From NCBI RefSeq assembly GCF_001570365.1, contig NZ_BBYK01000086.1, positions 1 through 43,611 on the forward strand: a stretch of DNA of 43,611 bases, read 5' to 3'. The notes beneath the pieces are model-generated. The model ran no database searches and was not told where the DNA came from. It worked only from the letters and a program-made list of their open reading frames with translations. Source of the stretch: Microtetraspora fusca (GTDB taxonomy: Bacteria > Actinomycetota > Actinomycetes > Streptosporangiales > Streptosporangiaceae). The position numbers were made by a program, and so were the translations under genes. This document shows, one piece after another, positions 33,013 through 37,427 of this stretch; within the stretch, counting starts at the first letter, position 1; every line of letters begins with the position of its first letter.

Positions 33013-33939
33013 ATGAAGTTCACCCTCCGGCAGGTCGAGGTCTTCCTGGCCGTCGCCGACTGCCTCCACTTCGGCCGCGCCGCGGAGAAGCTGCACATCT
33101 CGCAGCCCACGGTGAGCCAGGAGGTCGCCCGCCTGGAACGGGCCGTCGGCCTCGCCCTCCTCGACCGCAGCCGCCGTACGGTCGCGCTGACCCCGGCGGG
33201 CAGGGTCATGGCGTCCGAGGGCCGCCTGCTCCTCGACCAGGCGGGCTCCCTCATCGGGAAGGTCCTGCTCCACGAGGACTCGAGGATGAACACCGCCCGC
33301 CTCGTCGCGTCGCCGAGCGTGGTGAACCGCCTGCTTCCCGCCGTCATCAGCCAGGCGGAGACCGACCTTCCCACCCTGAAGATCGATGACATGTCCGTCG
33401 AGACCGGCGCCGTCTCCTCGACGCTCGCCGCGGAGCTGGCCGACATCGGCCTGGGGCGCTTCCTCGACGACCTGCCCGGCTTCCGCACGGAGACGATCGC
33501 CGACGAGCCGGTCCACGTCGCGATCAGCCGCGCCCATCCGGCCGCCGGGCTGCCCGCCGTGGCCCTGCGCGACCTTCAGGACGTGCCGCTGCTCCTGTGG
33601 CCGAGGGAGCAGCATCCGAGGTACTACGACTTCATCCTGGCGATGTGCGCCGATCGGGGGCTCGAACCGCACGTGCTCATGAGCCCGCCGAGGATCGTCG
33701 GCTCCCGCCTCTACCTGCTGTCGCAGGGGCGGGCGTTCTCGCTCGTGCCGGGCTCGACGACCGGCCACCTGTCCGGGGACGTCGTCGCCGTCCCCCTTCA
33801 GGAGCGGGCGACGCTTCCCCTGGAGATGCAGTGGCGGTCGGACGACCGGCGACCGCCGCTCCTCGCGCTGCGCGATCTCATCCGCACGAAGGGGGCGGAG
33901 CTGGCGGACCGTACGGGGGTCGGCGAGGCGGCTCCCTGA
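33013..33939 (+). CDS. LysR-family transcriptional regulator
   Basis: A 308-residue LysR regulator. The winged helix FTLRQVEVFLAVADCLHFGRAAEKLHISQPTVSQEVARLERAVGLALLDRSRRTVALTPAG is complete, followed by the effector-binding domain (LADIGLGRFLDDLPGF, ETIADEPVHVAISRAHP). The ATG at 33013 has a -10-like TAGCTT at leaderless spacing. It is divergent from psuG and upstream, in the same direction, of the urease-like genes with a gap of 117 bases. Either could be its target, and the sequence alone does not decide. Confidence 0.93.
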   Translation: MKFTLRQVEVFLAVADCLHFGRAAEKLHISQPTVSQEVARLERAVGLALLDRSRRTVALTPAGRVMASEGRLLLDQAGSLIGKVLLHEDSRMNTARLVASPSVVNRLLPAVISQAETDLPTLKIDDMSVETGAVSSTLAAELADIGLGRFLDDLPGFRTETIADEPVHVAISRAHPAAGLPAVALRDLQDVPLLLWPREQHPRYYDFILAMCADRGLEPHVLMSPPRIVGSRLYLLSQGRAFSLVPGSTTGHLSGDVVAVPLQERATLPLEMQWRSDDRRPPLLALRDLIRTKGAELADRTGVGEAAP

Positions 33940-34056: not shown

Positions 34057-34743
34057 GTGAGACTGACGCCCACAGAGCGGGATCGGCTGCTGCTGTTCAC
34101 AGCGGCCGAGCTGGCCCGCTCCCGGCGGGCCAGGGGCTTGCGGCTCAACGTGCCCGAGGCGACCGCGCTGATCGCGGACACCGTGTGCGAGGCGGCCCGC
34201 GCGGGCGCGCGGTTGGCGGACGCGATCGAGGCGGGCCGCGGTCTCCTCGGCCCAGACGACGTGCTGCCCGGCGTGCCCGACATCGTGACCGAGATCCAGG
34301 TCGAGGCCGTCTTCGACGACGGCACCCGGCTCGCCGTCGTCACCGACCCGTTCGGCGGCGGCTCGCTCGGCGACGACGCCCCCGGCGCGGTCCTGGCCGC
34401 CGAGCCCCCGGCCGGCGAGGAGGAGCCGGTGGAAACCGTCGAGATCGAGGTGGTCAACACCGCCACCGTCCCGATCAGCGTGACCTCGCACTTCCACTTC
34501 TTCGAGGTCAACCCGCTGCTGCGGTTCGACCGCGCCGCCGCCTACGGCCGCCGGCTGGCCGTCCCCGCGGGCTCCACGATCCGGTTCGACCCCGGCGCCC
34601 GCCGTACGGTTCCGCTGGTCCCCATCGGCGGCGCGCGGGTGGCGATCGGCTTCGCGGGCCTGGTGGACGGCCCGCTGGACGCGCCCGGCGCGTTCGAGAC
34701 CGCGATGGAGCGGGCGCGGGCCTGCGGATATCTGGGGGCGTGA
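34057..34743 (+). CDS. ureAB: Urease gamma-beta subunit fusion (UreA-UreB)
   Basis: A 228-residue fusion. Residues about 1-95 are the gamma subunit (LTPTERDRLLLFTAAELARSRRARGLRLNVPEATALIADTVCEAARAG, then VPDIVTEIQVEAVFDDGTRLAVVTDPF). After an acidic/Pro linker, residues about 125-228 are the beta subunit (VNTATVPISVTSHFHFFEVNPLLRFDRAAAYGRRLAVPAGSTIRFDPG, and FAGLVDGPLD). The canonical gamma LNYPE is LNVPE here. The GTG at 34057 has GGAGGAAG about 5 bases upstream, clearly better than the upstream in-frame ATG at 34018. Its stop overlaps the ATG of the alpha-subunit gene. Such fusions exist in actinomycetes, but here no ureE, ureF, ureG or ureD follows. Confidence 0.93.
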   Translation: MRLTPTERDRLLLFTAAELARSRRARGLRLNVPEATALIADTVCEAARAGARLADAIEAGRGLLGPDDVLPGVPDIVTEIQVEAVFDDGTRLAVVTDPFGGGSLGDDAPGAVLAAEPPAGEEEPVETVEIEVVNTATVPISVTSHFHFFEVNPLLRFDRAAAYGRRLAVPAGSTIRFDPGARRTVPLVPIGGARVAIGFAGLVDGPLDAPGAFETAMERARACGYLGA

Positions 34744-36386
34744 TGAGTCTGTACGGCTACCGCAAGGGCGACCGGGTACGGCTGGGCGACTCGGGACTGG
34801 TCGTCGAGGTCGAGCACGACTCGCAGAAGCGGGGCGAGGAGTTCCTGGCCGGGTTCGGCAAGACCGCCAGGGACGGGCTGCACCTGAAGGCCGCCTCCGT
34901 ACGCGACACCTGCGACCTGGTGATCAGCAACGTGCTGATCCTGGACCCGGTCCTGGGCGTGCGCAGCGCCTCGATCGGCGTGCGCGAGGGCCGGATCCAC
35001 GCGATCGGCCGCGCCGGCAACCCCGACACGCTCGACGGCGTGGACGTGGTGGTGGGCACCGGCACCACGATCGTGTCGGGCGAGGGCCTGATCGCGACGG
35101 CCGGCGCGATCGACACCCACGTCCACCTGCTCTCGCCGCGGATCATGGAGGCGTCGCTGGCCTCCGGCGTGACGACGATCATCGGCCAGGAGTTCGGCCC
35201 GGTGTGGGGCGTCGGGGTGAACTCGCCCTGGGCGCTGCGGCACGCGTTCAACGCCTTCGACGCCTGGCCGGTCAACATCGGCTTCCTGGCCCGCGGCTCG
35301 TCCTCCCACTCCGCGCCTCTCGTCGAGGCCCTGGTCGAGGGCGGCGCGTCCGGCTTCAAGGTGCACGAGGACATGGGCGCGCACACCCGCGCCCTGGACA
35401 CCGCCCTGACCGTCGCCGAGGAGTACGACGTCCAGGTGGCGCTGCACACGGACGGGCTGAACGAATGCCTGTCCGTGGAGGACACCCTGTCCGTGCTCTC
35501 CGGGAGGACGATCCACGCGTTCCACATCGAGGGCTGCGGCGGCGGGCACGTGCCCAACGTGCTCAAGCTGGCCGGGGTGCCGAACGTGATCGGCTCCTCC
35601 ACCAACCCGACGCTGCCGTTCGGCCGCGACGCCCTCGCCGAGCACCACGGCATGATCGTCTCGGTGCACGATCTCAAGCTCGACCTGCCCGGCGACGCGG
35701 CGCTCGCCAGGGACCGGATCAGGGCGGGGACCATGGGCGCCGAAGACGTCCTGCACGACCTGGGCGTCATCGGCATCACCTCCTCCGACGCGCAGGGCAT
35801 GGGCCGGGCCGGGGAGACCGTCAGGCGCACGTTCGCCATGGCCGGCAAGATGAAGGCCGAGCGCGGCGCCCCCGACCGGCACGACAACGAGCGCGTGCTG
35901 CGCTACCTGGCCAAGCTGACGGTCAACCCCGCCATCGCGCACGGCCTGTCCCACGAGGTCGGCACGCTCGAGGTGGGCAAGCTCGCCGACATCGTGCTCT
36001 GGCGCCCGGCCTACTTCGGGGCCAAGCCGCAGCTCGTCCTGAAGGCGGGCTTCCCCGCGTACGGCGTGACCGGCGACCCGAACGCCTCCACCGACGTCTG
36101 CGAGCCGCTGGTGCTCGGCCCGCAGTTCGGCGCGCACGGCGCGACCGCCGCCGACCTCTCGGTCGCCTTCGTCGCGCAGGCCGCCGCGTCCGGCGACCGC
36201 ATGCCCACCCGCAGGCGCCGGGTCGGGGTGCGCGGCACCCGCGGCATCGGCCCCGCCTCGATGGTGCACAACGCCCGCCTGGGCCGCGTGGACGTCGATC
36301 CGCACGGCCGCGTCTCCCTGGACGGCGAGCCGGTCGAGTCCGGCCCCGCCGACTCCGTTTCCCTGAACCGTCTCTACTTCCTCTGA
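34743..36386 (+). CDS. ureC: Divergent urease alpha subunit (UreC-like)
   Basis: A 547-residue amidohydrolase of the urease alpha family. Nickel ligands and catalytic residues align with Klebsiella UreC at a constant offset: H126 and H128 (IDTHVH), K206 carbamylation site and H208 (FKVHEDMG), H235 (ALHTDG), H261 (HIEGCGGGH), H309 in the flap, R325 and D349 (SSDAQGMGR). So the binuclear site looks intact. The flap differs: MVCHHL of typical ureases is IVSVHDL, so the flap cysteine is V308 and the second histidine is D310. HEDWG is HEDMG. The length of 547 is near the usual 567-570, with shortening mainly before the first HxH and between it and K206. The ATG overlaps the ureAB stop. Function may be on a substituted urea. 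Confidence 0.9.
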   Translation: MSLYGYRKGDRVRLGDSGLVVEVEHDSQKRGEEFLAGFGKTARDGLHLKAASVRDTCDLVISNVLILDPVLGVRSASIGVREGRIHAIGRAGNPDTLDGVDVVVGTGTTIVSGEGLIATAGAIDTHVHLLSPRIMEASLASGVTTIIGQEFGPVWGVGVNSPWALRHAFNAFDAWPVNIGFLARGSSSHSAPLVEALVEGGASGFKVHEDMGAHTRALDTALTVAEEYDVQVALHTDGLNECLSVEDTLSVLSGRTIHAFHIEGCGGGHVPNVLKLAGVPNVIGSSTNPTLPFGRDALAEHHGMIVSVHDLKLDLPGDAALARDRIRAGTMGAEDVLHDLGVIGITSSDAQGMGRAGETVRRTFAMAGKMKAERGAPDRHDNERVLRYLAKLTVNPAIAHGLSHEVGTLEVGKLADIVLWRPAYFGAKPQLVLKAGFPAYGVTGDPNASTDVCEPLVLGPQFGAHGATAADLSVAFVAQAAASGDRMPTRRRRVGVRGTRGIGPASMVHNARLGRVDVDPHGRVSLDGEPVESGPADSVSLNRLYFL

Positions 36387-36398
36387 GGAGCGATCCCC

Positions 36399-37385
36399 GT
36401 GTTCATGCCGCCGGAATGGCACCCGCACAGTCGTACCTGGATGTCGTGGCCCGTCGGCTACGCCCTGGACCGGCCGGAGGCGTCGTACCGGGCGTGGTCT
36501 GCGGTCGCCAACGCGATCGTGCGCCACGAGCCCGTCACGATGCTGGTCGACCCGTCCGAGCGGGCGTCCGCGGCCGCCTGGCTCGACCCGCGGGTCGAGG
36601 TGATCGAGCAGCCGCTCGACGACTGCTGGATGCGCGACAACGGCCCCACCTTCGTGTTCGACGGCGGGCGGCTCAAGGGGATCGACTGGACCTTCAACGG
36701 CTGGGGCTGGGCCCCGCACGAGAAGGACGACCTGGTCGCCGCGTCCATCCTCGACCGGGTGGGCGTGCCGCGCCATCGCACCGCGATGGTCGGCGAGGGC
36801 GGCGGCATCCACGTGGACGGCGAGGGCACGGTCATCGTCACCGAGACCGTCCAGCTCGACCCCCGCCGCAACCCGGGCTGGACGAAGGCGGACGCCGAGG
36901 CCGAGCTGCGCGCCCTGCTGGGCGTCGAGAAGGTGATCTGGCTCCCCCGCGGCCTGACCGCCGATTACGGCGGCTACGGCACGAACGGCCACGTGGACCT
37001 GCTGGCCTCGTTCGTACGGCCCGGCCTGGTGCTCTGCCACGTGCAGCCCGACCCGGCGCACCCCGACCACGAGGTCACCCGGGAGAACCTCGCGATCCTG
37101 CATGCCGCCACGGACGCCAAGGGCCGCCCTCTTGAGGTGATCGAGCTGCCCGCCCCCACCGTCCTGGAGGCGGACGGCAAGCTCGTCGACTACTCGTACA
37201 TCAACCACTACCTCGCCAACGGCCTGGCCCTGCTCTGCTCCTTCGACGACCCGAGGGACGCCGAGACCGCCGACCTCTTCGCGAAGCTCTTCCCCGACCG
37301 CGCGATCGCGTCGGTCGACGCCCGCGACATCTTCGCGCTCGGCGGCGGCATCCACTGCATCACCCAGCAGCAGCCCGCGACCTGA
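36399..37385 (+). CDS. aguA: Agmatine deiminase family protein
   Basis: A 328-residue enzyme of the agmatine/peptidylarginine deiminase family. Agmatine deiminase converts agmatine to N-carbamoylputrescine and ammonia. Visible motifs are MFMPPEWHPHSRTWMSWP at the N terminus, DDCWMRDNGPTFV, EGGGIHVDGEGTVIVTE, GTNGHVDLLASFV and the catalytic cysteine C320 in GGGIHCITQQQP. The GTG at 36399 has GAGGAG about 8 bases upstream. It starts 12 bases after the urease alpha stop, so the three genes form one operon. The enzyme's ureido product is a mono-substituted urea, which offers a possible substrate for the urease-like enzyme. A related guanidino substrate cannot be excluded. Confidence 0.88.
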   Translation: MFMPPEWHPHSRTWMSWPVGYALDRPEASYRAWSAVANAIVRHEPVTMLVDPSERASAAAWLDPRVEVIEQPLDDCWMRDNGPTFVFDGGRLKGIDWTFNGWGWAPHEKDDLVAASILDRVGVPRHRTAMVGEGGGIHVDGEGTVIVTETVQLDPRRNPGWTKADAEAELRALLGVEKVIWLPRGLTADYGGYGTNGHVDLLASFVRPGLVLCHVQPDPAHPDHEVTRENLAILHAATDAKGRPLEVIELPAPTVLEADGKLVDYSYINHYLANGLALLCSFDDPRDAETADLFAKLFPDRAIASVDARDIFALGGGIHCITQQQPAT

Positions 37386-37394
37386 CCCGCACGC

Positions 37395-37427
37395 CCCGGC
37401 CGGTTTCCCACCCCGAAACCGGCCGGG
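37395..37427. terminator. Perfect 13-bp stem terminator hairpin
   Basis: CCCGGCCGGTTTC (37395-37407) pairs perfectly with GAAACCGGCCGGG (37415-37427) around a 7-base loop. It lies just after the agmatine deiminase gene and before the convergent NUDIX gene, and could stop both transcripts. Confidence 0.85.

Follow-up and report, generated by a model that had tools for sequence, protein, structure and literature searches.

What does a urease-like enzyme do when its genes lie beside a gene for an agmatine-deiminase-family protein, and no urease maturation genes adjoin them? We addressed this question on a 43,611-nucleotide contig of Microtetraspora fusca (NZ_BBYK01000086.1, assembly GCF_001570365.1; this whole stretch is called the window below), in which a fused ureAB-like gene, a ureC-like gene, and an aguA-like deiminase gene follow one another closely (Table 1). 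Urease is the textbook example of an enzyme regarded as acting on urea only and as needing nickel chaperones dedicated to it. An earlier note, made from the letters of the window alone, had proposed that the urease-like enzyme hydrolyzes the ureido product of the deiminase. As far as gene content and sequence comparison can tell, we find it reasonably probable that the three genes form a two-step unit in which a repurposed urease fold hydrolyzes that product, probably N-carbamoylputrescine. In this catabolic unit, the deiminase would turn a guanidino compound, most likely agmatine, into a ureido product (N-carbamoylputrescine) and ammonia, and the UreAB/UreC-like complex would hydrolyze this monosubstituted urea to an amine (putrescine), CO2, and ammonia. 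The complex would do the job of the nitrilase AguB or the amidase AguY and would be activated without UreD, UreF, and UreG, either loading nickel by itself or using another metal. The substrate, the reaction, and the metal are what we infer from the observations that follow.

Partners of the deiminase

AguB is a known N-carbamoylputrescine hydrolase of the nitrilase type, whose fold is unrelated to that of urease and which is not known to contain a metal. For AguY, hydrolysis of N-carbamoylputrescine was proven in 2025; its gene adjoins aguA, in Actinomycetota as well, and the enzyme was discovered through the same kind of adjacency (PMC12283126). Its fold is likewise unrelated to that of urease, and its activity is proven, whereas that of the urease-like enzyme is predicted.

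We examined the neighbors of the deiminase in 296 genomes of the class, which yielded 77 deiminase-family places outside the window (read with at most 5 kb on either side, less where a contig ended). The count was restricted to deiminase genes of at least 190 bits and partners within 1.5 kb, and one urease-like locus (L225) entered it twice, as it has a deiminase on either side. Urease-like genes adjoined 28 of the 78 deiminase-family genes, in place of AguB or AguY; a nitrilase adjoined 17 and an AguY-type amidase 12, leaving 21 with no such partner, 4 of them at contig edges. Two partner types were never found beside the same deiminase gene (0 of 78). For the 57 deiminases of at least 340 bits, the corresponding numbers were 24, 14, 12, and 7 (3 at edges). 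The AguY-type label was given by description, from adjacency, length, and family (PRK06565).

Because the exchangeable partners correspond to known N-carbamoylputrescine hydrolases and never occur together, we conclude that the urease-like enzyme fills the slot of AguB and AguY. With AguB it shares the place beside a PAD_porph deiminase and the proposed reaction; AguY-type amidases adjoin the same deiminase subfamily and, in some loci, also have NCS1-family permease neighbors. This slot exchange is the strongest support for the interpretation given in the earlier note. The interchange of the urease-like enzyme with nitrilases and AguY-type amidases also makes agmatine and N-carbamoylputrescine the likeliest pair of compounds. 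The further suggestion that the usual nitrilase is being replaced was too narrow, since the step can be taken by an amidase, AguY, as well.

A tree of 86 deiminases (a quick tree with one support value) requires five changes of partner type. The urease-partnered deiminases of L204 and L216 fall within a clade partnered by nitrilases or AguY-type amidases, apart from the group of the window (98% support in the Shimodaira-Hasegawa-like approximate likelihood ratio test, SH-aLRT). In Tsukamurella, the nitrilase gene overlaps that of a deiminase 52% identical to ours, and the best NCBIfam match of the nitrilase is N-carbamoylputrescine amidase (186 bits, below the cut-off). Both genes lie near those of a primary amine oxidase and an aminobutyraldehyde dehydrogenase, which constitute a putrescine route.

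The deiminase of the window misses the cut-off of the agmatine-deiminase equivalog TIGR03380 (296 versus 381.8 bits). Scores of 250–263 were obtained for AguY-type-paired deiminases (n = 4), 279–287 for nitrilase-paired ones (n = 2), and 246–298 for urease-paired ones (n = 4 with the window). Because all three kinds fall below the cut-off, missing it looks, on these scores, like a trait of this deiminase subfamily.

One argument was given up as strong evidence, the lack of an N-carbamoylputrescine amidase above the TIGR03381 cut-off of 410 bits, because five deiminase-adjacent nitrilases themselves score only 174–208 and because all the Streptomyces scanned have a higher-scoring nitrilase elsewhere (see below). 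On nitrilase absence, only the genome of the window is informative: no nitrilase-type amidase there exceeds the cut-off, and the best match, at 65.8 bits, is nowhere near the deiminase-adjacent ones (AguY was not searched for).

Conservation of the pair was followed in the nearest relatives, meaning the best 80 of 567 confirmed matches in a scan of named genomes (close relatives only), each with as much as 10 kb of flanking sequence. The deiminase lay directly downstream of the ureC-like gene in 79 of them, Microbispora siamensis (L007) being the exception, and none of the 80 flanks contained a match to UreF, UreG, or UreD. TetR genes (50/80) and NCS1-family permease genes (43/80) were frequent neighbors. 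No deiminase was found beside any of 18 actinobacterial ureC loci of other types within 1.5 kb, a narrower flank than that used for the relatives.

Co-occurrence was assessed in 150 genomes of one genus, taken as Streptomyces. The urease-like gene was present in 87 (96 copies) and the deiminase in 98; both occurred in 86 genomes, the urease-like gene alone in 1, the deiminase alone in 12, and neither in 51 (Fisher p = 3e-27 for 150 related, non-independent genomes). The single genome with the urease-like gene alone (G765) holds a partial gene in an assembly of 460 contigs. The deiminase neighbor thus proved to be conserved among relatives and Streptomyces carriers alike. Two of the 12 deiminase-alone genomes are contig-edge cases (L253 has a ureC-like fragment, and L254 begins at a contig end), nine are taken up below, and in the remaining one (L258) the deiminase adjoins a flavin amine oxidase. 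The dependence is one-sided: the urease-like gene hardly ever occurs without the deiminase, and the deiminase may stand alone, which is the pattern expected of a downstream enzyme.

Adjacency is kept across gene orders. The order ureAB-ureC-aguA is found in the window, in Streptomyces, and in L240 (genome G208), a deep-branching relative (51% identical) that has ABC transporter genes upstream; aguA comes first in L204, L216, and L228, and the genes are convergent in L230. Judging from L240, the pairing may be old.

The genome of the window itself (G000; 9.02 Mb, 99% complete) contains three ureC-type genes. Besides the window copy, there is one on contig C47 with 84% identity to it and a third with 49% identity. 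The last is adjoined on its contig by UreF, UreG, and UreD, and the genome thus encodes a separate urease together with its maturation genes. Three deiminase-family genes are also present; the other two are 46–47% identical to that of the window and lie on C47 at distances of ∼6 and 13 kb from the urease-like ureC there. Urease-like and deiminase genes therefore occur together twice in one genome. The C47 cluster (L004, L005) further comprises an oligopeptide/nickel-type ABC transporter, TetR genes, a PucR-type regulator, an arginine-deiminase/dimethylargininase-like protein, an M20 hydantoinase/carbamoylase-family hydrolase, and an FAD oxidase, and it looks like a cluster for the catabolism of guanidino compounds. 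One of its deiminases scores 350.5 bits on TIGR03380, closer to the agmatine cut-off. A cluster resembling it, with a similar transporter and deiminases, was seen in L249.

NCS1-family permease genes were also noted near the deiminase in both urease-like and AguY-type loci (L028, L053, L129, L198, L213, L214, and L251; L198, L213, and L214 matched weakly, at 90–102 bits). The permease is a candidate importer of agmatine or of a ureido compound.

Grouping, pocket, and activation of the urease-like enzyme

The UreC-like protein resembles canonical nickel urease UreABC (structures such as 6yl3 and 1ejw) in its subunit make-up and in all metal ligands, as well as the flap His and Arg. It matches the sequence of 6yl3_C over the full length (503.8 bits) and clears the broad subfamily PRK13207 (715 versus 354 bits), but it stays below the cut-off of the urease equivalog TIGR01792 (610.2 versus 680 bits). 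The UreAB-like fusion exceeds its PRK13192 cut-off in the family scan (327.6 versus 243 bits). In an unrooted UreC tree of 45 of 128 distinct sequences, which included 15 of the 98 at ≥80% identity, a branch with support of 100/99 separated the urease-like group from 20 other sequences. This places the protein outside the canonical actinobacterial ureases, in a separate group that shares 46–51% identity with the 21 most distant of the aligned actinobacterial sequences; it also differs from canonical urease in being paired with a deiminase and in having no maturation genes adjoining.

Residues H126, H128, K206, H235, H261, and D349 are invariant in 22 aligned sequences and would supply the two-metal set of His-x-His, carbamylated Lys, His, His, and Asp; we take the roles of these and of the pocket residues to be those of their urease counterparts. 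The pocket differs more. The canonical substrate loop GGGTGPAxGTxATTxTPG is replaced by an xQxxGPxWxxGxxx type that is 4 residues shorter, and the mobile-flap Cys (Cys319) is Val308 in the window and Val or Ala in close relatives, so that both canonical features are missing. Close relatives also show SDAQGMGR for SDSQAMGR, DGLNE for DTLNE, HEDM for HEDW, and a replaced Ala363 equivalent (the display of these segments covered 9 of the 98 sequences at ≥80% identity). A shorter loop and smaller residues would suit a longer substrate. An AlphaFold model built from 19 aligned sequences was set aside as too poor for pocket analysis (mean pLDDT 52.7). The ratio of nonsynonymous to synonymous substitution rates (dN/dS) of the ureC-like gene was 0.06–0.17 in 8 pairs, accessory-less genomes included, revealing purifying selection.

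As the earlier note had stated for ureE/F/G/D, the window contains no maturation genes: no match came up in it with UreD, UreF, and UreG from its own genome or with UreE, UreF, and UreG of another actinobacterium as queries. We searched 15 genomes for UreF. It was absent from all 9 that have urease-like genes and no known canonical ureC and present in all 6 that have a canonical ureC. Five of the nine (G171, G742, G793, G758, and G208) gave one urease-like match and no other ureC; for G552, G587, G646, and G418, no search for other ureC genes was made. In the four Streptomyces among the nine, no UreD or UreG match exceeded the cut-off (weak matches of 23–31 bits only), and no other ureC was found; one of these genomes, of 9.2 Mb, is assembled into two contigs and has a completeness rating of 100%. 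Across the 150 Streptomyces, UreD was present in 81 of 83 genomes with the urease-like gene and another ureC, in 48 of 54 with another ureC only, in none of 4 with the urease-like gene only, and in none of 9 without ureC. The ureC-like gene is nevertheless under purifying selection in the four accessory-less Streptomyces (dN/dS 0.10–0.17 in five pairs). Because UreF, UreD, UreG, and any other ureC are lacking in these four, activation of the urease-like enzyme seems, from gene content, to be independent of the usual maturation proteins.

A precedent exists in the Helicobacter iron urease UreA2B2, which uses iron and needs no accessory proteins (PMC6737895). The two are alike as urease-type enzymes working without accessory proteins, a property predicted here from gene content, but UreA2B2 acts on urea. 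We know of no deiminase partner for it. Clusters of the ure(AB)C type without accessory genes were described in 2008 for Streptomyces coelicolor and Streptomyces avermitilis (PMC2492869), counted among urea-utilizing genes in 2012 (PMC3293853), and classed in 2017 as one type of urease cluster (PMC5489568). We liken the S. coelicolor cluster SCO5525–SCO5526 to the window type from its published description. Our literature search, which mostly left out subscription journals and preprints, found no link of the ure(AB)C type to agmatine or a deiminase and no remark on its independence from UreDFG.

Other variants of ureC were observed along the way. A third type, 47–49% identical to the window and with a GMGxGGVWDxG loop, occurs in L262, L263, and L264 (G719, G695, and G790), genomes in which we found no UreD match; it is another possible accessory-free urease-like class. 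A further type with an almost deleted substrate loop (L116 and L121; L243 and L244) has no match to the deiminase, UreF, UreG, or UreD in the flanks fetched.

Opposing evidence and rival explanations

The earlier reading is partly supported, by the tree, the conserved neighbor, and the slot exchange, with the activity and the exact substrate remaining predictions. Several observations weigh against it. Nine Streptomyces keep the deiminase and a TetR gene at the same site without urease-like genes (one of these loci, L261, ends just past the deiminase and is a weaker case; another, L251, retains the permease), and the one-sided dependence also implies a non-obligatory pair. All 11 Streptomyces scanned carry another nitrilase elsewhere (255–262 bits) that might perform the step; G587 and G418 have one of 246–247 bits, and G552 and G646 none above 107. 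The deep-branching relative L241 lacks a deiminase, as do four relatives at 67–69% identity, three of which, the annotated ones, belong to peptide-synthetase clusters; the urease-like group is therefore not limited to this step. Parts of the altered pocket recur elsewhere: the flap Cys is also Val in L109 and L113 on the canonical side, QGMGR occurs in L106, L116, and L121, and the peptide-cluster members retain QAMGR and DTLNE. The deiminase misses the agmatine cut-off, so another guanidine may be its substrate, although deiminases paired with AguY-type amidases fall short of that cut-off as well. Finally, 83 of the 87 Streptomyces with the urease-like gene have another ureC, which makes activation in trans possible there and in the genome of the window, where UreD, UreF, and UreG are encoded elsewhere.

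The four relatives at 67–69% identity are plasmid records of Streptomyces, Embleya, and Kitasatospora (L122, L123, L124, and L125) with sister-group ureAB-ureC genes. In the annotated L122, L123, and L124, these lie within a nonribosomal peptide cluster with phosphotransferase genes, joined in L122 by a 2-oxoglutarate (2OG) oxygenase gene; none of the four fetched stretches contains a deiminase or maturation gene. The target of these enzymes may be a ureido or guanidino group in the product.

The same two-step logic could apply to another guanidine, such as guanidinobutyrate, a guanidino amino acid, or a methylated guanidine, together with the matching ureido compound. We consider this rather unlikely for the window but possible above all for the C47 cluster, whose transporter, dimethylargininase-like protein, M20 hydrolase, and FAD oxidase are unlike plain agmatine use. 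The low TIGR03380 score fits such a substrate, but it is shared by the scored deiminases paired with AguY-type amidases (four) and nitrilases (two), and AguY acts on N-carbamoylputrescine (PMC12283126). The putrescine-route genes beside the Tsukamurella pair, the flavin amine oxidase of L258, and the C47 deiminase nearer the agmatine cut-off also speak for agmatine.

The urease-like complex could instead be an ordinary second urease acting on urea, borrowing UreD, UreF, and UreG from the canonical cluster, with the deiminase incidental or a parallel source of ammonia. Its annotation as urease, the complete ligand set, the published counts among urease genes (PMC2492869, PMC3293853, and PMC5489568), and the frequent company of another ureC, mostly with UreD (81 of 83), agree with this. 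The nine genomes without UreF, four of them Streptomyces that also lack UreD, UreG, and other ureC, together with the changed pocket and separate group and the pairing in 86 of 87 genomes, make it unlikely; moreover, deimination is established to yield no urea. Persistence of the genes without UreF, UreD, and UreG, with UreA2B2 as precedent (PMC6737895), would suit an accessory-free urease that acts on urea with another metal, the deiminase serving separate nitrogen scavenging. We regard this as quite improbable, since it leaves the tight deiminase pairing, the slot exchange, and the altered pocket unexplained.

If hydrolysis of a deiminase-derived ureido compound is correct, an accessory-free urease relative acting on a substituted urea would break both the rule of urea specificity and that of the nickel chaperones, and assembly of the metal site could be studied in a simple system. 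Many urease annotations in Streptomyces would be wrong (the type is present in 87 of the 150 genomes sampled), and antibiotic-producing bacteria would have an additional route from agmatine to putrescine. Taken further, the urease fold would join putrescine transcarbamylase, AguB, and AguY as a further, unrelated means of converting N-carbamoylputrescine to putrescine, with a metal site assembled without UreDEFG and close kin in peptide-synthetase clusters; for this broader proposal, we see the chances as evenly balanced. If so, a family of substituted-urea hydrolases is hidden under the name urease.

Layout of the window genes

The order and spacing described in the earlier note were confirmed. 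The ureAB- and ureC-like genes overlap by 1 nucleotide (TGATG), and 12 nucleotides separate the ureC-like gene from that of the deiminase.

Table 1. Features of the urease-like and deiminase locus in the window
Feature	Position	Strand	Remarks
LysR-family regulator, possible cluster regulator	33013..33939	+	directly upstream, co-directional
Fused urease gamma/beta-like subunit (UreAB-like)	34057..34743	+	GTG start; PRK13192, PF00547 and PF00699 matched
Urease-alpha-like catalytic subunit (UreC-like)	34743..36386	+	ATG start; PRK13207; metal ligands kept, pocket loop ∼148–161 shortened
Agmatine-deiminase-family (PAD_porph) enzyme, AguA-like	36399..37385	+	GTG start; PF04371
Perfect 13-bp hairpin, probable transcription terminator	37395..37427	+	no T run

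The deiminase contains the motifs DDCWMRD, EGGGIHVDG, GTNGHVD, and GGGIHC and thereby the Cys, His, Asp, and Glu pattern, whose residues presumably have the catalytic roles of the PAD_porph/agmatine deiminase superfamily. The terminator reported in the earlier note corresponds to the hairpin of Table 1; a 63-nucleotide stretch containing it has a folding energy of −33.2 kcal/mol (z = −4.0).

The LysR gene was rejected as a conserved partner because it had no match at E 1e-25 in the 80 related loci, where TetR is the commoner regulator. The window has LysR where several Streptosporangiaceae relatives carry a divergent TetR gene, an exchange of regulators at this site.

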